A program made the translations under genes and the position numbers. Source: a virus. From it: 28,148 bases of DNA. This document shows positions 1 to 20,500 of the stretch, piece after piece (the first letter of the stretch is position 1; the number at the start of each line of letters is the position of its first letter). The notes under the pieces are model-generated. The model searched no databases, was not told where the DNA came from, and worked only from the letters and a program-made list of their open reading frames with translations. Location: positions 1 through 28,148 of IMG/VR virus record IMGVR_UViG_3300009506_000246, one strand, 5' to 3'.

Positions 1-149
1 GTCTGGACACTTTTTTTGCGTACTATGCGTCTTTCGGTGCAAAATATCCTGTTTAAAGTCGGACAAACAGCAAAATATTGCGCACAATGAATTCCCTCCT
101 GTAACATGGATCTTGTACAGGAGAAAACAGGGGAAAAGAGAGAAAAAGA

Positions 150-217
150 CGGCCGCTTAGGCTACTCAGGCCGCTCAGGCAGGCCGCTTAGGCCGCTACC
201 GAGCCGCTACCGAGCCG
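150..217. repeat. GGCCGCT-rich short tandem repeats
   Basis: The heptamer GGCCGCT recurs at irregular 10-20 nt spacing. It ends in a perfect 11-bp tandem repeat, GCCGCTACCGA, at 192-202 and 203-213, followed by a partial third copy at 214-217. It lies in the gene-free left region. No function can be assigned. Confidence 0.75.
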
Positions 218-731
218 TGGAGGAAAGATACCGTACCGGCGAAGCGATCGTAGGGATACTTGACGTTACTAGTGGCGTTAGCTACTACCCTAGCCCAAGT
301 TAAACGATCTAGACTAAGACCAACAATCCTTATGCGCCATGTAGCACCACGACTAGCAACGATCAACTTCTCACTAAATACCATCTTGCTAGGCATCATC
401 ATCTTCTTACTACTTACTAGGTTCCAGACCAGGTATCAGACGCTACTAGTAATATAGTAGCGCAGCGCTTAGTAACGCTTAACGCTAGATAGTACCCTCG
501 CCCAGGTTAGCCAAAACCTTATGGGGCATCCACTCTTCGTCAAACTCCGCGCAGGCATCCATTCTTGGATGATCACACTCGTCATCTTTGCCTTAAGCAT
601 GATCGCAGAGTACCATAGCTGTCATGCTTCAAGACACCTCCGGCCGGATCAAGAGCAGGCTCAAAGAATCCATTTGGATCAAATGGAGACTAAACCTTGA
701 TTTCCAATTGCGGATCCATGTCGTCGATAAC

Positions 732-775
732 ATCTTCTCCATGGCGAGAAAGGATCTTCTCCATGGCGAGAAAGG
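732..775. repeat. Perfect 22-bp tandem duplication
   Basis: Two identical, directly abutting 22-bp copies lie at 732-753 and 754-775. Each contains TTCTCCATGGCGAGAAAGG. A perfect tandem copy suggests a recent slippage or duplication event, or a selected pair of binding sites, inside the non-coding left region. Confidence 0.85.
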
Positions 776-894
776 CAGAGCATGATCACCAAAGACAAAA
801 AGCTGATCACAGCGGCGATGGCAAAGCAGGTCACCCTGTCCACCCGTACCGCGATCAGAACATTAAGTGCGCGTCGTGCGAATCTATCTTCATA

Positions 895-1203
895 ATGCTA
901 ATAAAACAGGATCATCGGTTTTCAACAGCTGAGCTAATTCATAATCTTAATCTTCGGAATGGAAGTGAGATGCTAATAGAACAAGATCGTCAGTTTGCAA
1001 CAGCTGAGATCGTAGGCCGTCACCATAGACGCATCCCGATCCTTTCGTTCCAATTCCGATCAAGGTTGTGGTTCTCTGTCTTCAATGATGTCCAGGACAT
1101 CGTCTTCTCGGGTCGTCGGCGTCGTCGTCACCAAGACCAAGTGTCTTGGGAGTGAGGGAGTGAGATGTTAGTAGACCAGGATCATCAGTTTTCAACAGCT
1201 GTG
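895..1203 (+). repeat. Three-copy 39-nt degenerate direct repeat
   Basis: Copies lie at 895-933, 970-1008 and 1165-1203, with no indels. By hand comparison copies 1 and 2 match at 34 of 39 positions and copies 1 and 3 at 33 of 39. All begin with ATG and contain the core CAACAGCTG. Copies 2 and 3 are preceded by purine-rich GGAAGTGAG and GGGAGTGAG, which resemble weak ribosome sites. The corresponding peptides share the pattern MLxxQDxxFxTA. Sequence 3' of copies 2 and 3 is also related (CCAATT-CGATC at 1050-1061 and 1266-1277, with a further relative at 704-716). The units therefore appear to be remnants of a roughly 195-nt repeat. Confidence 0.7.
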
Positions 1204-1311
1204 TCAACATCTGTGATCATAGGACGCCAACGCGGCATGAGCATAGGCCACTACCACCTTATACCCCAATTACGATCACTGTGGCTCTATGTCTTCGACG
1301 ATGTCCTGGAC

Positions 1312-1368
1312 GTAAGCGCCGTGAGCGCCAAGCGTAAGCGCCGTGAGCGCCGTGAGCGCCGTTGAGCC
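1312..1368. repeat. GTGAGCGCC 9-bp tandem repeat array
   Basis: The 9-mer GTRAGCGCC occurs at 1312-1320, 1321-1329, 1334-1342, 1343-1351 and 1352-1360, with a degenerate GTTGAGCC at 1361-1368. One 4-nt interruption lies at 1330-1333. It follows the third 39-nt repeat unit. It could be an iteron-like protein-binding array or simple slippage. Confidence 0.8.
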
Positions 1369-1479
1369 TACCTTCCTCCCTTCCCATCCCACATAGTGAG
1401 ATTCTTCCGAGAGATTAATCACAAAAGACGAAAAAGTACCAGTTCGGGGGGTCTAATGGGAGGGGAACATACCTTATTC

Positions 1480-1531
1480 GGCGAAACAAAGTGAAGCCGA
1501 ACCAGAACAGAGTTCTCTTCACTTTATCGCC
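1480..1531. other. Composite stem-loop containing an AGAACAGAGT box
   Basis: GGCGA (1480-1484) can pair with TCGCC (1527-1531), and AAAGTGAAG (1488-1496) pairs perfectly with CTTCACTTT (1517-1525). Inside, AGAAC and GTTCT (1504-1508 and 1512-1516) close a 3-nt loop. The apical AGAACAGAGT is the same decamer that recurs at 1674-1725. The arrangement suggests a structured RNA or a DNA site recognised by a protein. The function is unknown. Confidence 0.6.
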
Positions 1532-1540
1532 TGAAAGGCA

Positions 1541-1626
1541 ATCTTCATTCCTTCGAAGATATCTTCATTACATTTCATTCGTATTCACTCATTACATTCC
1601 ATTACGATATCCTCCGGAATGAAGAT
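1541..1626. other. AT-rich segment with nested palindromes and CATTACATT repeats
   Basis: An 11-bp perfect inverted repeat, ATCTTCATTCC (1541-1551) and GGAATGAAGAT (1616-1626), brackets a 12-bp palindrome, GAAGATATCTTC (1555-1566), and repeated TCATTACATT elements. The segment is visibly richer in A+T than its surroundings. Such an arrangement is compatible with a replication origin or packaging site, but no diagnostic consensus is present. Confidence 0.5.
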
Positions 1627-1673
1627 ATAAGGAAACTTCTCTCCGCCGAAGGAAAGCAGAGCTTAGAACCTTT

Positions 1674-1725
1674 AGAACAGAGTTCTAGTAGAACAGAGTG
1701 TTAAACAGAGTGTAGAACAGAGTGT
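1674..1725. repeat. AGAACAGAGT box cluster
   Basis: Copies begin at 1674, 1690 and 1714, with a variant AAACAGAGTGT at 1703. They are spaced 11-16 nt apart, about one to one and a half helical turns. A further copy sits in the loop of the hairpin at 1504-1513. The first copy here is part of the inverted repeat AGAAC-AGA-GTTCT. The cluster looks like a set of protein-binding sites. Confidence 0.6.
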
Positions 1726-1783
1726 TGTTAAACAGGCCCTCTAGGCTGCCAATCAGCCTTGGGCCATACAGAGACTTGATCGA

Positions 1784-1830
1784 CTTGACTACCAGTCAAG
1801 GTAGTAGTAAGTAATAGGCCCTTAAGGGCC
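1784..1830 (+). promoter_or_regulatory. Possible promoter with adjacent palindromes
   Basis: TTGACT at 1785-1790 is followed after 17 nt by TAAGTA at 1808-1813, a good -35 but only a partial -10 match to the sigma-70 type. The -35 lies in a 7-bp hairpin, CTTGACT-ACC-AGTCAAG (1784-1800). A 14-bp perfect palindrome, GGCCCTTAAGGGCC, lies at 1817-1830, where an operator might sit. It is some 450 nt upstream of the first gene. The promoter call is speculative. The palindromes are directly visible. Confidence 0.25.
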
Positions 1831-2154
1831 ATGTATAAGTACTTCTTTATGTACTTCCTTATGTACTTCTTTCTTTCCCTTCCTTCCTGCGTAGCAGGGT
1901 AAGCCTCATTCTTCGGCCGATGGAAAGATCTCGAAGAGATCGAAATACTCATGAACTCCCAGCTAGGCTGGCTGGGTGGCCTCTGGCGGATTCGGTGTTG
2001 GGTTAGCCACCGATGTCCTTTGGATGAAAAAACGGATCCGCTGGAGGCAGCTTCCGGAACGTGCTCCACACTGCACCACTGAGCTGAGCCATGGAAACAG
2101 AGAACGTCATTTAACCGGTCTCATTCGGCCGCTGAGCCAAGATCTTCGAATGTT

Positions 2155-2213
2155 GGTATACCTCTATACCCTCCAAGCTTGGGGAGGGTAAGTTGGCGGT
2201 TTCCCGCGCCGCC
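2155..2213. promoter_or_regulatory. Three consecutive hairpins upstream of the operon
   Basis: GGTATA-CCTC-TATACC (2155-2170) overlaps TACCCTCC-N8-GGAGGGTA (2167-2190), which is followed by GGCGG-N9-CCGCC (2195-2213). The first two share TACC and so are mutually exclusive. This is the geometry of an attenuator-like switch, or of a processing or packaging site. None has a T-run typical of an intrinsic terminator. The first gene begins 69 nt downstream. Confidence 0.45.
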
Positions 2214-2282
2214 CGAGCCAGGTCTCTCGTGCTCCGACCACACGGGCCGGCTCCCCTCCTCAACCCCTACTAAGGTAGATAT

Positions 2283-2699
2283 ATGAATAGTGATGACAAT
2301 CACGATCTCTACAACCTGAAGAACGCTAGGGCTGAAGATCAGCGGAGAGAGATGCGGCGATTGGAGGCAGCCGGCATCTGCCTCTTCTGCCTTCGGGACG
2401 GTGACCAGGTCGGTCGATGGTCTGTCAGGCAGAACGAGTACCCGTACCCGAACACATCGACTCACCTCTTGCTCTACCCAGAAGATCACGTCTCTGACTT
2501 GATCGATCTTTTGCCGGAGACTAGATCAGAATTCTGGTCAGCGCTCGATTGGGCGAGAGAGACATATCGATTCGATCATTGGTCGATTGTCAGCCGGAAC
2601 GGATCTAGTACCCTAACTGGCGGAACGATCTATCACGTACACGTTCATGTCATCGTCGGCGACCCTGACCTGCCGCCAGTCCGAGTTAGGGTGTCCTAA
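2283..2699 (+). CDS. HIT-family protein (histidine triad)
   Basis: This 138-residue protein carries the HIT signature HVHVHVI at residues 118-124 (His118, His120, His122) near the C-terminus. Upstream are the usual HIT landmarks: a CxxC pair (Cys33, Cys36) and an N-x-YPY segment followed by HLL-x2-P-x2-H (residues 51-69). HIT proteins are nucleotide hydrolases or transferases acting on nucleoside phosphoramidates, dinucleoside polyphosphates or adenylylated products. The substrate here is unknown. The ATG is preceded by AAGGT with a 6-nt gap. It is the first gene of the rightward block and is followed at 33 nt by the HNH gene. Small HIT proteins are known in phages, but their role in infection is unclear. 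The family call is strong and the function open. Confidence 0.85.
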   Translation: MNSDDNHDLYNLKNARAEDQRREMRRLEAAGICLFCLRDGDQVGRWSVRQNEYPYPNTSTHLLLYPEDHVSDLIDLLPETRSEFWSALDWARETYRFDHWSIVSRNGSSTLTGGTIYHVHVHVIVGDPDLPPVRVRVS

Positions 2700-2732
2700 T
2701 TTTAGGGATGGATATTGACGGAGGTATCTATC

Positions 2733-3071
2733 ATGACATACAAGATCCCTCGTCGATGCTCCAAGCCTGGCTGCGATGAGATGCAGCCGTGTCAGATACC
2801 TGGCCATACGTCGACCTTTCGCGGAGGCAGTCACATTAATCCCCTGCCTGACGATTGGGCGGCGACTCGTCGGAGATTCATAGGTAAACCTTGCAACAAG
2901 TGCGGGAAGGAAACGATTCGCGGTGTCCTTGATCATATCGTCGAGCGGGCCGATGGTGGGAGCCATGACCCGAGCAATCTCCAGTGGTTGTGCAAGTCGT
3001 GCGATCGGATCAAGACTCGTCGATCTGCGGATCTTCGGCGGGGTAGGGGTAAGGGTAAACGTCGTCGATGA
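2733..3071 (+). CDS. HNH endonuclease (variant final His to Asp)
   Basis: The start is ATG 2733, 8 nt after GGAGG (2720-2724), in preference to an upstream in-frame TTG at 2715. The 112-residue product has a Cys/His knuckle (Cys9, Cys14, Cys20, His25), then a classic HNH core: zinc pairs C54-x2-C57 and C87-x2-C90, DHI at 67-69 (His68), Gly75-Gly76 and Asn82. The third position of the triad, normally the His of CH-x2-K, is Asp91 (CDRIKT). It ends in a strongly basic Arg/Lys tail suited to DNA contact. HNH proteins are known to take part in DNA packaging in HK97-like phages. A homing role is the alternative. The His-to-Asp change may alter or reduce catalysis. Confidence 0.85.
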   Translation: MTYKIPRRCSKPGCDEMQPCQIPGHTSTFRGGSHINPLPDDWAATRRRFIGKPCNKCGKETIRGVLDHIVERADGGSHDPSNLQWLCKSCDRIKTRRSADLRRGRGKGKRRR

Positions 3072-3189
3072 GTCCAAGTGGGAGATTGAAAGAATTCGTA
3101 ATTGACATGGCTTGGTACTTGACAAATGGACGCTTGCTCATATATCCTTGCTTCAAGCGGGCAAAATGGATCAGAGGCGGAGGACTGAA

Positions 3190-3492
3190 ATGAGTCTGAA
3201 TCTTTCTAACTATAAGAAGCTGATTGTCTCGGTCACCGGGACGTTCGGCGCCGTCGTTCCCCTCGTCCTGGCTGATGGCCAACTGTCGACCCAGGATGTC
3301 GTGGCCTTGGCCTTGGCAGTCCTGACGAATCTGGGAGTCTTCCAACTCCGGAACGTCGATAAGACGAACCCAGGAATCGTCGATATCCTGAACCAGGCGA
3401 ACCTGACGAGCGAATCGCCAGACTACCCGTCCGAGTCTCTTCTTGAGACAATTCGGCCGGCCGATTCGACTCATGACCAAACAGATGAGTAG
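3190..3492 (+). CDS. Putative holin (two-helix membrane protein)
   Basis: ATG 3190 follows GGCGGAGG closely and gives a 100-residue protein. Longer readings back to 3112 lack a ribosome site. Residues about 10-28 and 36-53 form two hydrophobic segments joined by a short polar ADGQLSTQD turn, and the rest is a polar acidic tail. This 'LADG-LS-D' two-helix architecture is common among actinophage proteins annotated as holins. The position just upstream of the lysin supports a role in making membrane lesions that release or activate it. A structural membrane protein remains possible because holins are identified mainly by topology and context. The stop overlaps the next gene's likely start. Confidence 0.65.
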   Translation: MSLNLSNYKKLIVSVTGTFGAVVPLVLADGQLSTQDVVALALAVLTNLGVFQLRNVDKTNPGIVDILNQANLTSESPDYPSESLLETIRPADSTHDQTDE

Positions 3493-3688
3493 TAATACCT
3501 CTCCTATAGGATCATGTCGTGGCTGCTTCAAGGTCTGGCACGGATTGATGCAAGTACACTGTTCGACTTGTCACTCTCACTTCTCATCGATCGATAACTT
3601 TGATCTCCATCGTGTAAAAGGCCATTGTGTCGAGCCAGAGGAAGTTGGACTCGTGGCAGGATCATGCGGCTGGCAACAGCCAGCTTAG
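3485..3688 (+). CDS. Small FDxHR-type zinc-binding protein
   Basis: This predicted protein of about 67 residues has two CxxC pairs (Cys11/Cys14 and Cys26/Cys29), followed by FDLHR (39-43) and Cys48. It matches the pattern of small 'FDxHR' zinc-binding proteins seen in actinophages, whose function is not established. The chosen ATG overlaps the preceding stop (ATGAGTAG), suggesting translational coupling. An in-frame ATG at 3473 and TTG at 3443 are alternatives, and none has a good ribosome site. It lies between the holin and endolysin genes. Nucleic-acid or protein binding is plausible. There is no evidence for a lysis function other than position. Confidence 0.65.
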   Translation: MSSNTSPIGSCRGCFKVWHGLMQVHCSTCHSHFSSIDNFDLHRVKGHCVEPEEVGLVAGSCGWQQPA

Positions 3689-3706
3689 GAGGATGTAGGA
3701 GGATGG

Positions 3707-4573
3707 ATGCCTGCTAAGCTAGTAGATTACTCGTTCGCACGACCCAGCGTATCCGGATTGAAGTCGGCCGGATATGTCGCTGCCATGCGCTACCTTTCAT
3801 GGGACAATTCATCGACGCATGGAAAGATTCTCTTCATTCCAGAGCTTAGAGCGCTCCATGGAGCCGGCTTAGGCGTCGGCTTCAACTGGGAGTATTCAGC
3901 TACCGATGCGAAGGGTGGAGCGGCAGCTGGCCGCATTCAGGGGACTGAAGCGGTGGCTCAGGCTAAGGTTCGTGGTCTTCCGAAAGGCAAATGCATCTAC
4001 TTTTCGGTAGACTGGGACACGACTCCTGGTGACCAGGCAGTCATAAATTCATACTTTTCAGCGGCTAGGGCCATCTGCCATTCTGCCGGGTACCGTATCG
4101 GAATGTACGGTGGCTATTGGCCGCTGTCTCGTGCCTTCAATTCTGGTGTCATCGATGATGGCTGGCAGACGTACGCCTGGTCTGGCGGGAACTGGGATAG
4201 CAGGGCGGCCATCCGTCAGGTTAGGAACAATGTCAATATCGCAGGTGGTGCCTGCGACATCAATGAGTTCGTTGCCGGTAAGGATTCACACATCTGGTTT
4301 CCTGGTGATTCCATTACTCCAGTCAGTCCAACACCAACAAATACAGGAGATGAAGTGTCGGCAGAAGATATTGCGGCGATTAAGAGCGTCTGTGGCCACA
4401 TTGAGTGGGTGTCTGTCGACACCATGGAGAATGTCAATCGGGTCAAGGTTAAGTTGGCCGAGCTTGAGACCAAAGTAGATGCTTTGGAGTCTGGCGGTGG
4501 CGGCACCGTCAATCTGACTCAGGAACAAATCATCGAAGCATTGAAGGTCTTCTTCTCTAAGGCAACCGCCTGA
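3707..4573 (+). CDS. Endolysin, DUF1906 (glycoside-hydrolase-like) domain
   Basis: Residues about 3-198 form a DUF1906/Rv2525c-like TIM-barrel domain related to GH25 muramidases. VDYS has the usual early Asp7, FNWEYS gives Glu62, YFSVDWD gives Asp102 and Asp104, and a late CDINEF gives Asp184. The enzyme is expected to cut peptidoglycan glycan strands. Residues about 200-215 are a Pro/Thr linker. Residues about 219-262 are amphipathic with coiled-coil character, a GGGG hinge follows, and the last 20 residues form a short helix. This C-terminal part may oligomerise or bind the wall. No signal peptide is seen, so export would need the holin. The ATG follows two tandem AGGAGG boxes (3688-3693 and 3697-3702), consistent with strong expression. 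Confidence 0.88.
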   Translation: MPAKLVDYSFARPSVSGLKSAGYVAAMRYLSWDNSSTHGKILFIPELRALHGAGLGVGFNWEYSATDAKGGAAAGRIQGTEAVAQAKVRGLPKGKCIYFSVDWDTTPGDQAVINSYFSAARAICHSAGYRIGMYGGYWPLSRAFNSGVIDDGWQTYAWSGGNWDSRAAIRQVRNNVNIAGGACDINEFVAGKDSHIWFPGDSITPVSPTPTNTGDEVSAEDIAAIKSVCGHIEWVSVDTMENVNRVKVKLAELETKVDALESGGGGTVNLTQEQIIEALKVFFSKATA

Positions 4574-4574
4574 C

Positions 4575-5837
4575 ATGTCGTCGTCGGCTTACCTACTCTC
4601 GTCGAATATCAACTTGCCTGATCCGGCAGCTGATACGTCCAAGTCTATCGTTTGGACTGACGGATCGGGTGACCCGTTCGACTTTACCGGATGGTCAGTC
4701 ACCTGGACTGTCTGGTGTGGCGTTTATATTGTTAAATCTAACTCTGACCTGACGCTGACTCCGGCGTCAGGTTTCATTCAGATAGACCTGTCCGCAGCTG
4801 AAGTAACCACCCTCTTCGATACAGGCTGGCACAAGGTAGTGGCCGTGAACGACTCTACGGGGGAAGTCGTTCGCGTCTGTTACGGTCGAGTCGAGTCGCC
4901 GATCGGTGAGAGTACTCCTGTCTACAATGTAACGTACGAGCCGCGCCTGTCATACAATCGATACACTACTCCAGGTAACTACGTCTGGACGAAGCCGGTT
5001 TGGTGCGATTCGAACTCTGTAGTTGAGATTATCGTTGTTAGCGGTGGAGGTGGCGGCGGATCTGGTCGCCGTGGAGCTGCTGGAACTGTCCGCACCGGAG
5101 GAGGCGCAGGCGCCCCGGCTCAAGCGAACTTTATCGTTGTATCTGCTGCTGCTCTTAATGCTACCGAGAATGTGACTGTTGGCGCCGGTGGTGCCGGAGG
5201 AGCGGCGGTTACATCAAATGATACAGATGGCAATGGGGGGGCGTCTGGTCACTGGTCATATGTTGGGACGCGATACACTGATGCCCTCATTACTGCGTAT
5301 CCGGGAGGGGGAGCGCAGGGCGGTAAAACGACCCCTGGCTACGGGGGAACTTCATATTCACAATACGGGACTTTTGCCGAAGGGCATTCAGCCGGACCTT
5401 ACTCTGATGGCAGTGGAGGGGCCGGCAGATCCCCCGAGACCTATGCTTCCGGTCCGCATGCTGGCGGCTCTGGTGGTGGCATTACCTCCGGCGACACCGC
5501 CAACAATGGCGGAACTGTGAATAGGTCTTTGGCGATGGATAATGGCTCAGCGGGCGCAAGCTACGGCGATGGCGGCGTCGTCGATGGTTCCAGCCCGACC
5601 GCATCTAATTCTGTCGCTAGAGACGCACGCCCAAGCCTTGTCACGTGTTTTGGTGGTGGCGGTGGTGGTGGTGCCGCATCGATTACCCAAGCTGCGCAGG
5701 CCGGAGCTGATGGCTTGCAAGGCGGTGGCGGCGGCGGTGGCGGCGGCGCATCATTGAATGGCTACAACTCTGGCGCCGGAGGCGCCGGAGGGGATGGATA
5801 TGTCGAAATCATTGTGAGAGGCGGGAACCCGAACTAA
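4575..5837 (+). CDS. Glycine-rich tail fibre / minor tail protein
   Basis: This 420-residue protein begins one base after the endolysin stop. Residues about 1-115 form a beta-rich N-terminal domain of the kind that anchors baseplate or fibre proteins (WTD, FTGW, WHKVVA segments). From about residue 128 there is a glycine-rich receptor-type domain beginning TTPGNYVW. It contains long GGGGGG runs separated by short polar loops and ends in a beta strand, GYVEIIVRG. Similar glycine-rich domains form polyglycine-helix bundles at the tips of phage adhesins and set host specificity. It is therefore likely a distal adhesin. Its location beside lysis and sugar genes, away from the tail cluster, is unusual. 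Confidence 0.75.
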   Translation: MSSSAYLLSSNINLPDPAADTSKSIVWTDGSGDPFDFTGWSVTWTVWCGVYIVKSNSDLTLTPASGFIQIDLSAAEVTTLFDTGWHKVVAVNDSTGEVVRVCYGRVESPIGESTPVYNVTYEPRLSYNRYTTPGNYVWTKPVWCDSNSVVEIIVVSGGGGGGSGRRGAAGTVRTGGGAGAPAQANFIVVSAAALNATENVTVGAGGAGGAAVTSNDTDGNGGASGHWSYVGTRYTDALITAYPGGGAQGGKTTPGYGGTSYSQYGTFAEGHSAGPYSDGSGGAGRSPETYASGPHAGGSGGGITSGDTANNGGTVNRSLAMDNGSAGASYGDGGVVDGSSPTASNSVARDARPSLVTCFGGGGGGGAASITQAAQAGADGLQGGGGGGGGGASLNGYNSGAGGAGGDGYVEIIVRGGNPN

Positions 5838-6607
5838 TGTCATTCGATTTGACAGTCATCGTTCCTTCATCTGGACGTCCTTCCAACATGCGCCGGCTGG
5901 CTCAGGCATTCCAGGACACCTGCACAGCTAACACAACACTCATCTGCGTCCTAGACGAAGGCGATCGTGAATCTGGCAGGTATCACGGGTTCTTGAATGG
6001 CCGAGGCCAGTTTGGCCGAGTCATGACTGTCCCTCGTGGACGGAGAGGAATGGTCGACCCGCTGAACAGGGCATTCGAGGAATTGGAATTCGAATTCGGA
6101 TTTGCAGTAGGATTCATGGGTGATGATCACCTGCCGAAGACGAGAGGGTGGGATGAGAAGTACCTCGAAGAACTTGACATCCTCGGTACCGGCATTGTTT
6201 ATGGCGATGATAAGCTGCAAGGGAAGAACATCCCTACACAAATGGCTATGACGGTTGACATCCCAAGAGAGCTTGGCTACATGTGTCCGCCTCAATTCCA
6301 ACACCTCTGGGTTGACTGTGTCTGGCGGGATTGGGGAGAGGGAATCTCCAGACTCTCCTATTTAGAGACTGTTGTAGTTGAACATTTACATCCATTGGCT
6401 GGCAAGGCGAAGAACGATCGCGGGTATCGGGCCGTCAACTCGGCTTCCATCGGCAAGCAGGACCAGGCAGCGTACCACGAATACCGTGATGGCGGCGGAC
6501 TTCAAACTGACCTGGACAAGCTGCGCTCACTTCTTGCAGTCACTGCTATCTATAGCGACGAAGAGTGGATGAGGATGCTAGAGCATGAGCGGAACGATGA
6601 CGAGTGA
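5837..6607 (+). CDS. GT-A-type glycosyltransferase
   Basis: The ATG overlaps the fibre stop by one base (TAATG), so translation is coupled. The 256-residue product starts with a GT-A nucleotide-binding motif, LTVIVPSSGRPSNMRRLAQA (residues 5-24). A GDDH motif lies at 95-98 (Asp96, Asp97), in the place of the metal/nucleotide-sugar DxD motif. A later HLWVDCVWRDWG segment resembles the acceptor-side half. No signal peptide or membrane segment is seen, so it is a cytoplasmic enzyme. Donor and acceptor cannot be deduced. With the following two genes it forms a compact sugar module adjacent to a fibre gene, suggesting glycosylation of a virion protein. Confidence 0.72.
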   Translation: MSFDLTVIVPSSGRPSNMRRLAQAFQDTCTANTTLICVLDEGDRESGRYHGFLNGRGQFGRVMTVPRGRRGMVDPLNRAFEELEFEFGFAVGFMGDDHLPKTRGWDEKYLEELDILGTGIVYGDDKLQGKNIPTQMAMTVDIPRELGYMCPPQFQHLWVDCVWRDWGEGISRLSYLETVVVEHLHPLAGKAKNDRGYRAVNSASIGKQDQAAYHEYRDGGGLQTDLDKLRSLLAVTAIYSDEEWMRMLEHERNDDE

Positions 6608-7358
6608 TGTCCTGGTATCGTTCTCGCTGTATGGCACCGATCCCGAAGATGTCTACTACAGAGGCGCAGTCTGGAATTCGAAGATATACGCTGATTGGCA
6701 GCCTAGCTGGAGCTTGAGATTCTACTGTGGAGATTCCGTACCAGATAGCGTCAAGAAAGACATCGTTGCACACAACGATAAAGCCTCAATTGTGGAAGTT
6801 CATGGTCCAGAAAATGCTTCCGCTACCACTTGGCGGTTCGGAGCCGTTGACCCCTGTGAGTCTTTTGGAGCAATCATTTTCCGTGATTGCGATTCGCGGC
6901 CGATTGAGCGTGAGAGACGAGCAGTCGAAGAGTGGCTAGCCGAAGACCCTAAGCAGTATAGATTCCATGTCATGCGTGACCATCCATGGCATGCAAGGCC
7001 AATGCTAGCCGGCCTATGGGGAATCAGGACGCCTGCATATCACGACATCTTCCGACGTGGAATCGTCGAGCATGGCGACCATCCTTGGCAGATTGACCAG
7101 GATATCTTGTACAAGAAGGTCTGGCCAGTGGCCAGGAGATACGTCCTCTCGCACGTTGGCTGCATGCGACTGTATGAACGAATCGACATGCGTCGCCCTT
7201 TCCCCGTTCCGCGAGAAGAGAAACGATTCGTCGGGCAAGGCTTTTACGGGGATGGCAGGATCAGGTTTCCTGGCCACGAAGACATGGTCGAACCAGACTC
7301 GCATCTGTTCGTCAGAAATCGAAGAGTGTTCCTAAGGAAGTATGATGGCACGTACTAA
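6585..7358 (+). CDS. Putative second glycosyltransferase (DxD)
   Basis: This 257-residue protein overlaps the previous gene by 23 nt. It has a GT-like N-terminal half (VLVSFSLYG, a later WSLRFYCGD) and a clear FRDCDSRP motif with Asp101-x-Asp103, the usual metal/donor site of GT-A enzymes. Residues 130-165 are His/Trp-rich (HVMRDHPWHARPMLAGLWG) and resemble the acceptor region of capsular-polysaccharide-type transferases. There are no membrane segments. An in-frame ATG at 6597 is an alternative start. The exact family is not certain, but the DxD motif and neighbours make a sugar-transfer role likely. Confidence 0.62.
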   Translation: MSGTMTSDVLVSFSLYGTDPEDVYYRGAVWNSKIYADWQPSWSLRFYCGDSVPDSVKKDIVAHNDKASIVEVHGPENASATTWRFGAVDPCESFGAIIFRDCDSRPIERERRAVEEWLAEDPKQYRFHVMRDHPWHARPMLAGLWGIRTPAYHDIFRRGIVEHGDHPWQIDQDILYKKVWPVARRYVLSHVGCMRLYERIDMRRPFPVPREEKRFVGQGFYGDGRIRFPGHEDMVEPDSHLFVRNRRVFLRKYDGTY

Positions 7359-8262
7359 GACGGTACTGGTGACTGGCAGCGATGGATTGATCGGTCGCTA
7401 CTTGACCAGACACTACCAGCGTCTTGGTTGGTCCGTCGATCAGGTTGACCTGGATTACCCTGGCGGAGCTCTCGCATTCTTTGCAGACAGAACTGGCCGA
7501 TATGACCTCATCGCTCATTGCGCCTACCGAGTTGGCGGTCGAGTCGTTATCGATGGTGAGCCGATGTCTCTGGCCACGAACTTGCAATTAGATGCAGCGA
7601 TGTTTCAATATGCCGTTAGGACGAAGGCACGTGCCGTACTTTACTTCAGTAGTTCAGCTGCGTATCCGGTTAGCCTGCAACATGGATTCTTTTCCCATTT
7701 TGCTTGTGAAGAAGAAGACATCAACGCACATGTCCATCGTCTGGTCGAAAGTGACGTCAATCTCAAGCGTCCGTCCCTACCCGACGCAGGTTACGGTTGG
7801 GCTAAACTGACTGGCGAGAGGCTGGCCGAAGCCGCTTCAGCCGAAGGCTTGAGAATTCACATATTCAGACCATTCTCTGGATACGCTCACGATCAGTCGC
7901 TGGCCTACCCGTTCCCGTCCATCATCAAGCGGGCGTTGGAAGGAGACTATTCGGTTTGGGGTCCACCAGGCCAGACGAGGGACTGGATTCATCTCGATGA
8001 CGTCGTCAACGCTATCCAGACAATCTACGAGAATGATGATAGGAGACCTGTCAATCTCTGTACTGGGGTCGGTACTGAGATGGGCGAGCTAATGAATATA
8101 GCCGCAGGCAGAGATGTAGACGTCGAATACGATCTAAACAAGCCGACTGGAGTTATGTACCGGGTGGGAGACCCGAGCAGGCTCTTTGAGCATTATCATC
8201 CAAGAATTTCAATAGAGGAAGGTGTTAATCGTGCCATACAATGGGCAAGTTCCGAAGCCTGA
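7342..8262 (+). CDS. NAD-dependent sugar epimerase/dehydratase (extended SDR)
   Basis: This is a 306-residue extended short-chain dehydrogenase/reductase. The Rossmann motif GSDGLIG places Gly12, Gly15 and Gly18, an acidic residue pair (VDLD) follows beta-2, and the active site has SSSAAY plus Tyr151-x3-Lys155 (YGWAK). The later RDWIHLDDVVNAI motif is typical of nucleotide-sugar epimerases, dehydratases and reductases such as GDP-fucose synthase or UDP-glucose 4-epimerase. The exact reaction is not resolved. It probably supplies or modifies the sugar donor for the neighbouring transferases. Start 7342 is the longest reading. ATG 7345 has better spacing to AAGGAAG. The gene overlaps the previous one and the small terminase start. 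Confidence 0.85.
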   Translation: MMARTKTVLVTGSDGLIGRYLTRHYQRLGWSVDQVDLDYPGGALAFFADRTGRYDLIAHCAYRVGGRVVIDGEPMSLATNLQLDAAMFQYAVRTKARAVLYFSSSAAYPVSLQHGFFSHFACEEEDINAHVHRLVESDVNLKRPSLPDAGYGWAKLTGERLAEAASAEGLRIHIFRPFSGYAHDQSLAYPFPSIIKRALEGDYSVWGPPGQTRDWIHLDDVVNAIQTIYENDDRRPVNLCTGVGTEMGELMNIAAGRDVDVEYDLNKPTGVMYRVGDPSRLFEHYHPRISIEEGVNRAIQWASSEA

Positions 8263-8740
8263 AGGCGAGAGGCAGCGTCGCAACAGGCCAGCCTATGATG
8301 GCATCCAGATTGAGTCTGACGACATAATCAGGGGTTTTGAACTCCCTGATCTCGGCTTCGAGTGGCATGAGCGGACGATTGTCTGGTGGGAGACATGGCG
8401 TTCAGCTCCGCAATCGAAGCTTATGACTGAGACTGACTGGCAGTTCCTCATCGAGACCGCTCTCCTGCATCATAGACTCTTTACGATGAGCCAGCGAATG
8501 TCTGCTGGTCAGTTGATGCAGGTGGCTTCAGAACTCAGACAGCGTGAGGGTCAACTTGGTGCTACGTGGTCCGATCGGGCAAAGATGCGCATCAAGATAG
8601 ACAACGTCTATGACTACCTCCCAAAAGAGGAGCAGAAAAACAGAACTGTAGATTTTCATGATGAGTACATGAGGCTCATTACCGAAGCTGAAAAGTTGAC
8701 CCAGGAGGCCAACGGCGATGCTACCTCCGGGGATTCCTGA
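8231..8740 (+). CDS. terS: Putative terminase small subunit
   Basis: The start is GTG 8231, 8 nt after AGGAAGG, in preference to a GTG at 8222 that lies within the ribosome site. The 169-residue product begins with a basic PKPEGERQRRNRP segment, as in many P27-type small terminases. A helical central region follows, with WHERTIVWWETWRSAP and TDWQFLIETALLHHRLF, and the C-terminus is polar. This protein would bind the packaging site and regulate the large subunit, in a ring. The identification rests on the motif style and on overlap with the large terminase gene (8718). It overlaps the end of the epimerase gene by 32 nt. Confidence 0.78.
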   Translation: MPYNGQVPKPEGERQRRNRPAYDGIQIESDDIIRGFELPDLGFEWHERTIVWWETWRSAPQSKLMTETDWQFLIETALLHHRLFTMSQRMSAGQLMQVASELRQREGQLGATWSDRAKMRIKIDNVYDYLPKEEQKNRTVDFHDEYMRLITEAEKLTQEANGDATSGDS

Positions 8741-10337
8741 ATATACGCTCGGATGGGCAGTCCTGAATTGGGGCAGTCGGGTCCTGGCTCAGCCAGACGA
8801 CAATCCTACGTCAATAGCTGGTGAGCGGTGGCGTTACTCGCCAGAGCAGGCAAAAAACATCCTCTGGATGTATGCAGTCAATCCAGTCACCGGTCGATAC
8901 ATTTACAAATCGTCAGTTCTAGAACGAGGGAAGAAGTGGGGCAAGTCCCCGTTCTTGGCAGCAATCCTCTGCACTGAGTTTCTTGGACCAGTTGAGCTGG
9001 CAGGATGGACGTTCAAAGAGGACCCAGAGACAGGTTTGCGTAAACCAGTCTGGCATCGCGTGGATGACGAGCGAGGCCAACCGATCGGTATCATTCGAAA
9101 CCAGTCGTGGGTCCAGATAGCCGCTGTATCTGTCGAACAGACTGCAAACACGATGGACTGTGTACGCGGGATGCTTACCAAGGGCTCTGCATACGAGGAA
9201 TATCCAGGTTTGGATGTTGGAATTGAGCGATGCTCTTGGAACGGGTCCAAACTGGAGAGAATCGCCGCTTCGGCTTTCTCCCGAGAGGGAAACCGACCAG
9301 ATTTCGTTGGAATTGACGAAACTCACCTTTGGGTGCCGAGTAGATCTGGTCCAGATAACTTCAGAGCGATTCAGAGAAACCTAGCGCCACGTCGAAAGCG
9401 GTGGATGGCAGCAACGAACGCTCCGGTTCGTGGTCAGGGCAGCGTAGCAGAGATACATCACGATGCCTACGACGATATGATCTCGGGCAGAACAGAAATA
9501 GACAACTCTATCCTAATGGATACGCGCCAGGTCAGTCTTTCTGACATCTACGACAAGGAAAAGGCATATCCAGCCTTGGAGTTCGTCTACGGAGACGCTT
9601 ATACGACTGGACGTCTCGATATTGACAGCATTTGGGAAGAAATCATGTCGCCGATGTCCGAAGAGGCAGAGATGCGCCGGTTCTACTTCAACCAAATGAA
9701 CAAGGGCGAGAGCACATGGCTTAAATTGAGCGATTGGGATGGATGTCACGACCCTCGAATCCATCTGAAGAATTCAGACCCTGTCGCACTCGGGTTTCGG
9801 GTTACGCCAAGGCAGTCAGCCAATATCGTGGCCTGTAGATTGACAGATATGGCCTTGTTCGACTTGTCTCGCGGCTCATGGGAGCGGCACGAGTCCTTCC
9901 CTAAGGACTGGGAAGTCCCAATGAGCGAGGTAGACATCCGAATGCGTAAGATAATCGACTCTCTTGACGTCAAGCACGTCTGTGCTGATCCGCAGTACTG
10001 CGATGATATCGTCTCTCGTTGGGTTTCTTCCTATCCCAGGAAGAAAATCGAGGGCATGTGGTCGAATCAGAACCAGACCAAGTTCTCCAGAGCTGTCGAA
10101 CAGTTTGAAGCGGCCGTCCAGGATGGGCGAATAAAGTGGAAGGATGGTGTTATCAATCGACACGTTCAAAACTGTCATATCGAAGAGGTCTCCAATGGTC
10201 ACATCATCCGAAAAGAGACACCAAAGTCCGAAAACTACATCACTGCCGCGCAGGCTGCGGTACTTGCAGCGGAAGCGGCGAGGCTTGCGATAGCTGACGG
10301 TGCACTCAAGAAGAATAAGGTATGGACGTTCAGTTAG
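8718..10337 (+). CDS. terL: Terminase large subunit (ATPase intact, nuclease Asp residues apparently substituted)
   Basis: This 539-residue protein is the DNA-packaging motor. Walker A is RGKKWGKS at 70-77 (Lys76, Ser77), Walker B with the catalytic Glu is FVGIDET (Asp200, Glu201), and ATNAPV at about 234-239 fits the coupling motif. The C-terminal half has the layout of the RNase H-like nuclease. However, the strand that normally ends in FDGS reads GFRVTPRQ (Arg361 in the Asp position), and the C-terminal helix that normally reads IDAA reads ITAA (Thr509). The middle acidic site, ADPQYCDD (Asp424, Asp429, Asp430), is retained. By memory of the family, two of three metal ligands appear missing. 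Either an unusual arrangement or an inactive nuclease is possible. Confidence 0.93.
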   Translation: MLPPGIPEYTLGWAVLNWGSRVLAQPDDNPTSIAGERWRYSPEQAKNILWMYAVNPVTGRYIYKSSVLERGKKWGKSPFLAAILCTEFLGPVELAGWTFKEDPETGLRKPVWHRVDDERGQPIGIIRNQSWVQIAAVSVEQTANTMDCVRGMLTKGSAYEEYPGLDVGIERCSWNGSKLERIAASAFSREGNRPDFVGIDETHLWVPSRSGPDNFRAIQRNLAPRRKRWMAATNAPVRGQGSVAEIHHDAYDDMISGRTEIDNSILMDTRQVSLSDIYDKEKAYPALEFVYGDAYTTGRLDIDSIWEEIMSPMSEEAEMRRFYFNQMNKGESTWLKLSDWDGCHDPRIHLKNSDPVALGFRVTPRQSANIVACRLTDMALFDLSRGSWERHESFPKDWEVPMSEVDIRMRKIIDSLDVKHVCADPQYCDDIVSRWVSSYPRKKIEGMWSNQNQTKFSRAVEQFEAAVQDGRIKWKDGVINRHVQNCHIEEVSNGHIIRKETPKSENYITAAQAAVLAAEAARLAIADGALKKNKVWTFS

Positions 10338-13648: not shown

Positions 13649-13679
13649 AGGCGGGTCGTGATAATGATCCGGCCCGCCT
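13649..13679 (+). promoter_or_regulatory. GC-rich hairpin after major capsid gene
   Basis: AGGCGGG (13649-13655) and CCCGCCT (13673-13679) form a 7-bp stem with a 17-nt loop, 13 nt after the capsid stop. It has no following T-run, so it is not a classical intrinsic terminator. It may act as an mRNA-stabilising element or partial attenuator that separates the very abundant capsid message from downstream genes. Confidence 0.55.
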
Positions 13680-13699
13680 CAATCAAGAGAGGTAGACCT

Positions 13700-14692
13700 G
13701 TGAAGGTCTTGGCTTACGTCCATGCTTATCCTGGTTCTGGTCACAACGCCGGAGCAGAGACAACGATCCACGGTCTGATGCGGCACATGAAGCGGGATGG
13801 ATGGGACCCGATGGTCCTGGCGTCCAAGCCGTTTCGGACTGAACCAGGTAGCTATGTCATCGATTGGATTCCAGTCCAGGCACATAGCTCAAAGAAAGAT
13901 CCATTCCTATACTTCCCAGGTCAGGATCTCATCGTCTCTCACCTGGAGTGCGCCGAACGAGCTTACCTCGTCGGCAAGATGCTGAACAAACCAGTCGTTC
14001 AGCTCATTCACAACACGACAGACTTCTCTCAAGGAATCTCTCGATTCGCTCACGGCCTGGTCTTCAACAGCGAGGCCACGAAGAAAGCGGTCAACGCTCC
14101 ACAGCCGAGCATCGTGGTCTACCCTCCGGTTGATCCGGAAGAGTACAGAGTCGAGACGACGAGAGAGTACATCACACTCGTCAATATGAGCGATGGTACA
14201 GACCCATGGTACGACAAGGGTCCGGAAACGTTCTACAGGCTGGCAGAGCGGTTCCCTCGCGAGAAGTTCCTCGGTGTGAAGGGTGGCTACGGAATCCAGG
14301 ATGTTAGACCAGGTTACCCGAACGTCACAATAATGGAACACACGGATCACCCACTCTCGATCTATAAGCGATCGAAGGTAATGTTGATGCCTTCGGGCAT
14401 CGAGTCATTCGGCAGGATCGCTGTCGAGGCAGCCGCCTCCTCCATCCCTTCGATTGTTTCGGATACGGCAGGCTTGAGAGAGGCTAGTGTTGGCATTGGC
14501 TACCTGCCTCCGAAGGATATTGACCTCTGGACTTCAGCACTGAGCGAAGTGCTCTGGAACTACGACGAGGCATGCAAGCACGCAGAGGTTTCGTCAAGGC
14601 TCCTTTGGAAGAAGACAGATCGACAATTGGACACATTTAGAGAGTTCATGAGATTGGCGGTGATGAGCAATGGATTTAGTCACTCTGGCTGA
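13700..14692 (+). CDS. GT-B (GT4-like) glycosyltransferase inserted in head operon
   Basis: GTG 13700 is preceded by GAGAGG with 7-nt spacing and gives a product of about 330 residues. Longer readings start inside the hairpin. The N-terminal part begins VKVLAYVHAYPGSGHNAGAE, the acceptor-side glycine/GAE motif of GT4 enzymes. The C-terminal domain carries the donor-binding E-x7-E pair (Glu235 and Glu243 in ESFGRIAVE), preceded by MLMPSG and followed by a conserved PSIVSDTAGLREA. The fold is expected to transfer sugar from a nucleotide donor with retention. It lies directly downstream of the capsid gene and overlaps the connector gene by 23 nt, suggesting that a head or tail protein is the acceptor. 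Phage-encoded glycosylation of capsid and tail proteins is known in some mycobacteriophages. Here it is inference. Confidence 0.85.
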   Translation: MKVLAYVHAYPGSGHNAGAETTIHGLMRHMKRDGWDPMVLASKPFRTEPGSYVIDWIPVQAHSSKKDPFLYFPGQDLIVSHLECAERAYLVGKMLNKPVVQLIHNTTDFSQGISRFAHGLVFNSEATKKAVNAPQPSIVVYPPVDPEEYRVETTREYITLVNMSDGTDPWYDKGPETFYRLAERFPREKFLGVKGGYGIQDVRPGYPNVTIMEHTDHPLSIYKRSKVMLMPSGIESFGRIAVEAAASSIPSIVSDTAGLREASVGIGYLPPKDIDLWTSALSEVLWNYDEACKHAEVSSRLLWKKTDRQLDTFREFMRLAVMSNGFSHSG

Positions 14693-17504: not shown

Positions 17505-20500
17505 TTGATTTGGCTGGTCTAATCGGCGAGATGATGGTCTCAGTCAATGCCATGCTCAACCGTGGGTCTTTGGCTGCTACAAACGCACAACTCCGTTCCG
17601 GCCTGGCCGCTGGTGGTGCAGCGGCTGGTGCCGGCTTTTCTCGTACCCTAGGCGTCTCTACCAACAAGGGAATGACAGCTGTCTCTGGGTCGGCGAACCA
17701 GGCCGCATCCAGGGTAACTGGCGCATGGACAGCTGGCGGAGCAGCTGCTGGTGCCGGTTGGGGTAGGTCTGGTAGGACGCATTTCAATTCTGGAATGGCA
17801 AATATCGCTGCTGCTGGAAGAGGAGCAGTTAACGGTATAACTGCAACGTTCTCCAACGGTGGTCGCATAGCAGGAGCTAACTTTGGTAGTCGTCTACTCC
17901 AGACCACCGGTGGTGGCCTAGCCAGAACCAAGATGGCAGCGATGTCGGCTGGGATGGCCATCGCTGGTGGCATGGGTCGACATGGAAGTCTCGCAGGATC
18001 TAGATTCGGATCTGGCATAACAGCTACCGGTAGAACTGGCTTTACCAACTTCTCTCGTATTGGAACTACTGCAACGATGGCCTTGGCCGGAGGCATCGGC
18101 AATAGTGGAAGTAGAGCTGGTGCTCGCTTCGGTTGGGGAATGAGGACTACCGGAGCGGCCGGAATGAATGCGTTCTCAAGGTCTGCTATGGCGGCTGGTT
18201 ATTCACTTGCCGCTGGCATGGGTGCACCTGGTGGTCGTGGTGGTGCACTGTTCGGTGGCGGTATGGTTGGCGGTGCTCGCGGTGGTATGCTTCCGTTACC
18301 TGCCAACGTTAACAGGACATTGGGCGGCATCCCTGTCGGAAAAACTGGTACGTCCCTAGGAGGAAAGTTCGGCGCTGGTATGTCTGGTGTTTCAGCTACA
18401 TCTAGGATGGTAGCTGGAGGATTCGGTTCGGCAGCGATTGCGGCTACTCGATTCGGTGGTGCAGCTGGCGGAGCCGGAACTGCGGCCAGAGGCGCAGCCA
18501 CTGGTGCAAGAAGTCTCGCCGACAACGGGAACAGGTCTGCTAGTGCCCTCGTAGCTGCTGGAGCCGGGGCTCAAAAAGCCGGTGGCGCGTTTGCAGCCAT
18601 GAAAGGCCCGCTGACCTTCCTTGCCGGAATGCTCGGTATCAAGATGGTTAAGGCTGTCTGGGACGTCGCTTCTCAGTTGGACTCGGCACACCTCGCCTTC
18701 GAGACGTTCCTTGGATCGGAGCCGGCAGCCGATCGATTCACTCAAAAGCTTATCAAGTTCGCTAAGCAGACTCCGTTCGAGTTCCCTGAACTAGTCGGCG
18801 CTGCCCAGAAGATTATGGCTCTAGGCTTCTCGGCGGATCAAGTATTCCCAATGCTGACTGCTATCGGTGACGCTACGTCAGCTATCGGTGGTGGCCAGCA
18901 AACGATTGACCGTGTAACCCTGGCTCTCGTTCAGATGAAGTCGAAGGCTAAGGTTTCTGGTGAGGAGATCAGACAGCTGGCTGAAGCTGGTATTCCTGCT
19001 ACTCAATACTTGGCTGACGGCTTCGGCAAGACGACGCAAGAGATCCAAGACATGCAGCGCAAGGGCCTTATCCCTGCCGACCAGGCCATTGAAATTATCA
19101 TTAGGTCCATGGAAGAGGGCTCGGCTAACGCTCGTGGCTTCGGCGGAATGATGAAGAAGCAGAGTCAGACGATGGCTGGATTGATGTCCACCGTCAAAGA
19201 CACATTTTTAACTAACTCTGCGCAGATCATGCAGTCCATTGGATTCCTGATTCGTGGTGGTCTGCGAGTCGTCATCTTCTTCTTTGAGCTATTTGCCAAG
19301 GTTGCCCTCGTCCTCGGCAATTCTTTAGGCAACCTGGTTCACTGGGTCACGAAGACAAAGGCGGTTCTATATCCGCTGATAGCTATCTTTGCTGTCTTGG
19401 CTATCAACGCCATGGCTTGGAGAATCGCTATGTACTCAAGTCATGGTGGCATTGCTGGTTTCGTCATGGCTATTGGATGGTTGAAAGCTTCGCTACTCAA
19501 CTATATCAGGACGTCGAAGATAGCAACAACTATGACGTTGTTGTTCAACTCTGCGTGGTACGCTAACCCGCTGGTCTGGATTGCCATTGCCATCATTGCT
19601 GTCGTCGCTGCTCTCGTCGTCCTTTACCTAAAGGTGAAGTGGTTCCGGGATGGCGTACATGCCATGTTCCATTGGTTGGGCGCAGCTCTGAAGGCAATCT
19701 GGCACGGTATAGCATTCGCCTTCAAGAATTACTGGGACATTATCATTCTGGTCTTGTCTGCGGCTCTTGGACCTATCGGCCTGGTCATCATGGCCTTCGT
19801 CGTTCTCTACCGTCGAGTTGATTGGTTCCGAAACGCTATTAATGCAGCGTTCCGTGTCATCGGCGAGGCATTCAAATGGCTATGGAGCATGATGAAACAG
19901 AACTGGGACTATACGGCCTTAGTTCTGTCTCTCATTACTGGTCCTATTGGTTTGTTTATCATGGCTCTTGTTGTGCTCTACCGGAGAGTATCCTGGTTCC
20001 GGGATGGGATCCATAGGGCATGGAAGTTTATCGTTGATCTGTCCCGTTGGATCTGGGACCACATGGGCAGATATATCAAGACGTATGGTGCCATCCTTCT
20101 GACGATTTTTAGTCCGATCGGAGCGCTCATCGCTCTCTTCGTCCTCCTCAAGAGGAAGGGCGATGAATGGGGCAGGTTTGTTTCTTCGATGAAGCACATC
20201 TTTGCTCCGGTTGGGCAGGCATTTAGGGAAGTCGGCAACATCTTCGTCGATACGTGGCACGACATCGTGAACGCCTTCAGGCCATTGGGCAGGGCATTCG
20301 CTGATCTGGGCAAGTCCATCGGCAAGGCATTGAAGCCATTCTTCGATGTCATGAAGATGCTGTGGGATCTCGTTGTAAAAGCATGGAACGCAATCGTTGG
20401 CGCATTTAACCATGGAGGCAAGAAATCTGGTGATTCTGTCGGTCCGGGCAGCCCAGCCAGGAAGAACACGGTTTCGTTCGCTACCGTCCTGGCCACCGTC

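Follow-up and report, generated by a model that had tools for sequence, protein, structure and literature searches.

Part of one published account places the GOLLD and ROOL RNAs near tRNA islands of phages (PMC12286853), and part of another describes a mycobacterial tRNA cluster that contains GOLLD plus an HNH gene (PMC6582537). The locus described here, the first 2282 bases of a linear virus record of 28,148 bases (IMG/VR IMGVR_UViG_3300009506_000246; the whole record is called the window below), resembles them in its niche by phage tRNA islands and HNH genes and in its long foldable stretch, but differs in having no Rfam match and a structure that is not strand-specific. Two kilobases without genes are rarely kept by phages, and it is the absence of genes in this DNA, just upstream of a rightward late operon, that concerns us. 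In Streptomyces phage Success, which ranks first among annotated phages when their terminase large subunits (TerL) are compared with that of the window (all at 35% identity or less), and in some similar contigs, a tRNA/HNH interval precedes the terminase at the same place as in the window, the start of the rightward operon, with the HNH gene present. Success and three of 20 scanned contigs (L015, L016 and L022) have eight to 11 tRNA genes there, before TerS/terminase, whereas the window has none; an HNH gene occupies the place in many relatives. The left end of Fromanvirus Rebeuca likewise shows the window's order of HNH, lysin, TerL and portal, but its HNH gene starts already at base 549 of the record, after one small gene.

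Our preferred reading, to which we give a probability of about 0.5, is that positions 1-2282 are a truncated, fast-evolving intergenic control region before the late operon of an actinobacterial siphophage, at the point where transcription diverges in its relatives. As a control spacer it is unusual in appearance and probably ordinary in kind.

A gene-free region before the late operon

The features on which this section turns are the following.

1..2282, no strand assigned: gene-free region upstream of the late operon (codon-usage scans; no tRNA or plausible Rfam family; no phage or plasmid DNA match)
2283..2699, + strand: HIT-domain protein, first gene of the late operon (Pfam PF01230, 29.3 bits against a cut-off of 21.5)

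The start at 2283 is the earliest gene backed by independent evidence (Pfam). On its left the region is cut off where the contig stops, and its measured length is therefore a minimum. When codon usage was scored with a model trained on 26 genes of the window (in-gene 5th percentile, 0.085), none of the 180-nt steps lying wholly inside 1-2282 attained that percentile; after retraining and with smaller steps, three of 35 windows exceeded it and none of the 35 reached the in-gene median. Open reading frames (ORFs) of 65-152 amino acids do occur upstream of 2283. The products of those at 697, 1165 and 1728 (minus strand) had no Pfam family above cut-off, ORF 697 was unmatched in 50,697 phage records, and the sole non-self match of the three ORFs among the loci we collected joined ORF 1165 to 26 residues of locus L167 (E 0.009), which we take as chance. 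The DNA of the region gave zero matches to phage and plasmid collections. We accept that 1-2282 is noncoding, possible very short genes aside, and the codon-usage scans bear out the claim of a preliminary description of this DNA that more than 2 kb left of the late operon lack a convincing gene.

Repeats, hairpins and operator-like boxes

In place of genes the region has the following small features (strand given where one is assigned).

151..217: small tandem arrays, GGCCGCTTAGGC-type and GCCGCTACCGA-type (repeat scan)
732..775: perfect 22-bp direct duplication (repeat scan)
895-931: duplicated ~150-nt element, third, partial copy (repeat scan/self-match)
951..1100: duplicated ~150-nt element, copy 1 (blastn self-match, E 1.5e-11, 65% identity)
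1144..1311: duplicated ~150-nt element, copy 2 (blastn self-match, repeat scan)
1311..1367: 9-bp tandem array, unit CGTGAGCGC, ~5.8 copies (repeat scan)
1504..1726, + strand: operator-like boxes AGAACAGAGTTCT (at 1504 and 1674) and AACAGAGTGTT (at 1692 and 1716), all inverted repeats around a 3-bp centre
1836..1872: 12-bp tandem array, unit GTACTTCTTTAT, ~2.8 copies (repeat scan)
2167..2190: 8-bp perfect hairpin just ahead of the first late gene (hairpin scan)

Region 1-2282 has 13 perfect hairpins with a stem of 6 bp or longer (loop 3-8), against a mean of 2.5 in shuffled sequences, none of 100 of which reached 13, and against two to eight in each of the 11 equal-length chunks of the remaining window. 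Stems of at least 7 bp number five against 0.6 in shuffles, and one of the 11 remaining chunks also has five. There are nine families of direct repeats and nine merged tandem arrays; ten chunks of the same length have zero to four such arrays each, and 30 shuffles average 0.17. The decamer AGAACAGAGT has four copies, all at 1504-1726, and no other copy in the window; the pattern AGAACAGAGTNT, with one mismatch allowed, finds the same four sites, where shuffles average 0.59 and one in 100 reaches four. The preliminary description had reported at least ten hairpins, which is true if 6-bp stems are counted, four families of direct repeats, where we find more together with the excess of tandem arrays, and a repeated decamer box, which the four copies of AGAACAGAGT confirm. 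Its interpretation fared less evenly: the noncoding, repeat-rich and hairpin-rich character stands, while the specific functions that it offered (noncoding RNA, genome end, origin) are unproven.

Could the repeats instead be the remains of genes, or of a tRNA array, decayed at a hot spot? Relatives with eight to 11 tRNAs before TerS lend this some colour, as does a single frame over 697-1365, which in codon score is the part of the region least unlike genes and which contains three copies of a 46-nt repeat at spacings that are multiples of three (75 and 195). However, the mismatches between the copies of the ~150-nt element are spread evenly over the codon positions (13/9/11), so that the element does not evolve like a gene, no tRNA was detected in the region even at E 1, and there is no convincing protein match. 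Such decay is most improbable, and the coding reading of 697-1365 was itself dropped on account of the flat substitutions, the want of a convincing homologue and the weak codon score.

The same place in relatives

Relatives were sought mainly through one gene of the operon.

8718..10337, + strand: terminase large subunit, TerL, bait for finding relatives (PHROG 9)

The TerL alignment matched at least 600 stretches, at least 567 of these from relatives, and the best 80 were kept; a glycosyltransferase alignment contributed 80 of 183 loci and an endolysin alignment 36 loci. Seven relatives aligned to the TerL of the window at 40-49% identity, and three records look complete. G001 (57.6 kb) closes to a circle by a 127-bp end overlap; G003 is scaffold46 of Micromonospora sp. 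CB01531 (NZ_LWLS01000090.1; 58,139 bp), with an open frame spanning the record ends; and the ends of G016 (59,592 bp) abut without overlap. The order GT5837, TerS, TerL, portal, MCP is identical in the three.

Between the last leftward gene and the rightward operon each of these records has a gene-free stretch, of 2385 bp in G001, ~1134 bp in G003 and 1000 bp in G016, the G003 figure having been read by eye because the annotator, which gave 1886 bp, missed small genes. In the codon test 4 of 37, 0 of 16 and 0 of 14 windows of these gaps, respectively, were at or above the in-gene 5th percentile, and none was at the median. Conserved coding frames in relatives, the outcome that the preliminary description had named as contrary to its claim, were looked for and not seen in these three, all of which are gene-free at that place. 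The gaps are thus like the region in the window in genomic place, in lacking genes, in size (1.0-2.4 kb) and in being hairpin-rich (G001, G003) or rich in tandem repeats (G001, with six arrays against 0.7 in shuffles, and one of 22 other G001 chunks having seven). They are unlike it in sequence, for the window has no DNA in common with any of the three gaps, and a search of the region against the records of nine relatives at E up to 10 returned matches of 13-28 bases only (best E 0.0099). Short words shared between the spacers are at chance as well, so in these three relatives, at this evolutionary distance, the place is kept and the sequence is not.

Two stretches of relatives' DNA were noted in passing. 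The G001 gap closes (L099, ~5716-6550) with a long palindromic array, rich in AT, after which come many GGATCC-centred, GGTACC-type and GGTACCGGTACC-like palindromes. G003 and G016 have in common a 195-nt noncoding element (69% identity) just before their late operons (L118, ~6179-6371; joined L179 and L154 of G016, ~19926-20117), which is absent from the window.

The gap is not universal, a tRNA and coding-like DNA occupying the operon start of L100. Of 14 Success-like loci examined, which are more distant, 13 have a gene-free divergent stretch of 441-3014 bp, as judged by an annotator that overlooks HNH and tRNA genes. The endolysin scan yielded no additional relative with such a gap, the scan with the HIT protein a single match over 39 residues, and neither a repeat-unit pattern scan of viral contigs nor single-sequence scans with TerL, portal and tape measure yielded anything useful.

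A proposed control region whose place outlasts its sequence

What kind of DNA would hold its position while its letters change? We propose that the rightward late-operon promoter, and probably also a leftward one, would lie within 1-2282, and that a dimeric regulator of the phage would bind the operator-like palindromes at 1504-1726. The other DNA of the region may be loosely constrained, growing and changing through short tandem duplications and fold-back copying; such turnover would account for a conserved position with an unconserved sequence. Cumulative GC skew in the window supports a control region here: its minimum, at 2270, falls where a turn of transcription to the right would put it. 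The detrended skew of G001 has its minimum at 45,892, close to the gap (42,450-44,834), but the raw skew has its own at 54,532. An excess of hairpins is found in the window, G001 and G003.

Several observations weigh against this proposal. Its divergent placement is drawn from relatives because the window stops before any leftward gene: the leftward genes are outside the window, and a position between leftward and rightward genes is seen in G001, G003 and G016. The exact box AACAGAGTGTT is not in the gaps of these three, and of 228 collected loci it turns up outside the window in a single record, that of L015 and L090, where it lies in the gap. A search for a conserved regulatory word over five spacers (window, G001, G003, L104 and L105) found none: common 9-mers number two, against 1.1 in shuffles, that is, chance. 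A scan of 1-2400 limited to sigma-70 type sites gave no promoter-like site against 2.3 in shuffles, and the same stretch has four terminator-like sites against 2.0. The excess of stems of at least 7 bp in G001 is due to its AT array, without which there is one against 0.7; G016 has no clear hairpin excess at 6-7 bp; and a single tandem array is present in each of G003 and G016.

One word, TTTGTCCGA, was at first thought to be a regulatory or packaging site, being exact in the window and the G001 and G003 gaps and one letter off in G016. It was dropped, with common 9-mers at chance over the five spacers and its orientation and distance varying.

The skew and the boxes could also be read as marks of a replication origin, in which palindromes, iteron-like boxes and AT-rich patches would form the origin with its unwinding element. 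The box cluster at 1674-1726 is iteron-like, the two 100-nt windows of lowest GC content in the whole window (33%) lie at 1539-1638 and 881-980, the G001 gap has its palindromic AT-rich array, and the skew minimum at 2270 would suit an origin. Yet divergent transcription gives skew minima too, and noncoding DNA AT-rich patches; the raw skew minimum of G001 is away from its gap; no iterons are common to the spacers beyond chance; and the early genes lie outside the window, an initiator protein not having been sought. We regard an origin with strong doubt.

Folding and the question of a large RNA

The part of the region closest to the late operon stands out for its folding.

1440..2110, no strand assigned: palindrome-rich part, folding better than shuffles on both strands (z -4.6/-5.1 with 20 shuffles, -3.8/-4.6 with 15 shuffles)

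Structure across the whole region was considered and rejected, because z-scores of 150-nt folds are near those of the remainder (means -0.68/-0.89 in the region, -0.65/-0.53 in the remainder) and 1-700 gave a z of -1.2, with three of 20 shuffles folding as well. The 400-nt windows starting at 1-1101 were ordinary (one of 24 below z -3), and those starting at 1201-1801 were low on both strands, with 8 of 14 window-strand cells below z -3 against 6 of 64 in the remainder. In the G001 gap the part nearest the late operon is the most foldable, again on both strands (to z -7.0 and -9.2).

These values, together with the tRNA and HNH genes before the terminase in relatives, speak for a large structured noncoding RNA at ~1440-2110, made late in infection in a niche of the GOLLD/ROOL type. 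The niche by itself is suggestive, by analogy, of context and not of membership in GOLLD or ROOL. Elsewhere in the phage, however, windows reach -4.1 at 671 nt (17 windows per strand, mean z -1.8 and -1.2) and, at 400 nt, go as low as -4.7 and -5.2, and the 150-nt windows of the region differ little from the remainder on average. Moreover, the two strands of 1440-2110 fold alike with equal counts of G-U pairs, as in DNA palindromes, which argues for palindromic DNA as much as for RNA; over 1601-2200 the centroids differ slightly, with 10 G-U pairs on the + strand and 4 on the other. Stronger folding at ~1200-2200 thus fits palindromic DNA at least as well as RNA. None of the relatives found is near enough in sequence for covariation.

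A scan of the region against Rfam gave no match at gathering thresholds and, at E 1, only SpF51 and mir-31, far under their gathering scores, so this is not the described GOLLD or ROOL. ARAGORN found no tRNA in the region and cmscan none at E 1, and with no plausible match in either scan we rejected known RNA families and tRNAs for it. An RNA of the kind proposed is quite unlikely. It is improbable that ~1440-2110 is a new large, ornate noncoding RNA in the niche of tRNA arrays, GOLLD and ROOL, with the palindrome-rich end of the G001 gap as its fast-diverged counterpart.

A separate observation concerns tRNAs in two collected loci: a 38-nt stretch at 266-303 of L104 and 349-386 of L105 is 79% alike and looks T-arm-like by eye, and ARAGORN calls a tRNA-Val in L105 (322-389) and nothing in L104.

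Does the contig begin at a genome end?

That the window starts in gene-free DNA raises another explanation for its repeats and palindromes, namely that they serve the terminase, with the region containing cos (or pac) and the contig starting at or near a physical end. The order of genes after the left end is that of Rebeuca, the contigs of L104 and L105 likewise have gene-poor DNA at their left ends, ahead of the first late genes, and both ends of the G016 record are inside its gap, within the 195-nt element common with G003. When the end of G016 is joined to its start, the sequence aligns with that of G003 with no gap at the join and small gaps just upstream. On the other side, G001 is circular by its overlap and breaks between TerS and TerL, and the G003 record breaks within an open frame, which means that record ends without overlap arise elsewhere too and that a single arbitrary break per genome could land in the gap. 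With the breaks of G001 and G003 outside the gap and those of G016 inside it, the sign is mixed. Furthermore, the TerL of Success is 25.8 kb from the start of its record, no common end sequence was found, and palindromic DNA may also break assemblies. We consider a genome end unlikely and keep it as the first-ranked rival to a control region.

Other features of the late operon and its surroundings

From 2283 on, the rightward operon encodes the HIT-domain protein, an HNH endonuclease, a small protein, an Rv2525c-type endolysin, terminase, portal and major capsid protein.

2745..3071, + strand: HNH endonuclease gene (Pfam PF01844, PHROG 589)
3707..4573, + strand: endolysin with an Rv2525c-like glycoside hydrolase domain (Pfam PF08924)

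The small protein between the HNH endonuclease and the endolysin is weakly DUF7439-like, under the Pfam cut-off. A very long ORF of the operon is taken for the tape measure gene, and within this long tape-measure-like gene 135-bp imperfect tandem repeats (72-76% matches) lie at 21051-21345. Amid the late genes, those at 5837-6607, 6585-7358, 7342-8262 and 13658-14692 appear by eye to be sugar-modification-like (glycosyltransferase-like, epimerase-like) and have homologues in relatives. The HNH homologues of G001, G003 and G016 (L095, 2751-3032; L097, 13306-13608; L179, 3637-3909) are distant from the late operon start, unlike those of the window and the Success-like contigs. Near the late operon start of G003, the Micromonospora-associated phage, L008 has by eye a large serine recombinase-like gene (5167-6762); no such ORF was seen in the window over 2283-8222, where the family search did not cover all genes.

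Meaning of a gene-free place

When a site stays without genes through continual change of sequence, this suggests that its function depends on position, spacing or structure and not on conserved letters. If the region is transcribed, it would be a candidate for a new phage RNA. A terminus or an origin, should it contain one instead, would settle how genomes are packaged or replicated in an uncultured clade that is related to a phage from a Micromonospora assembly.

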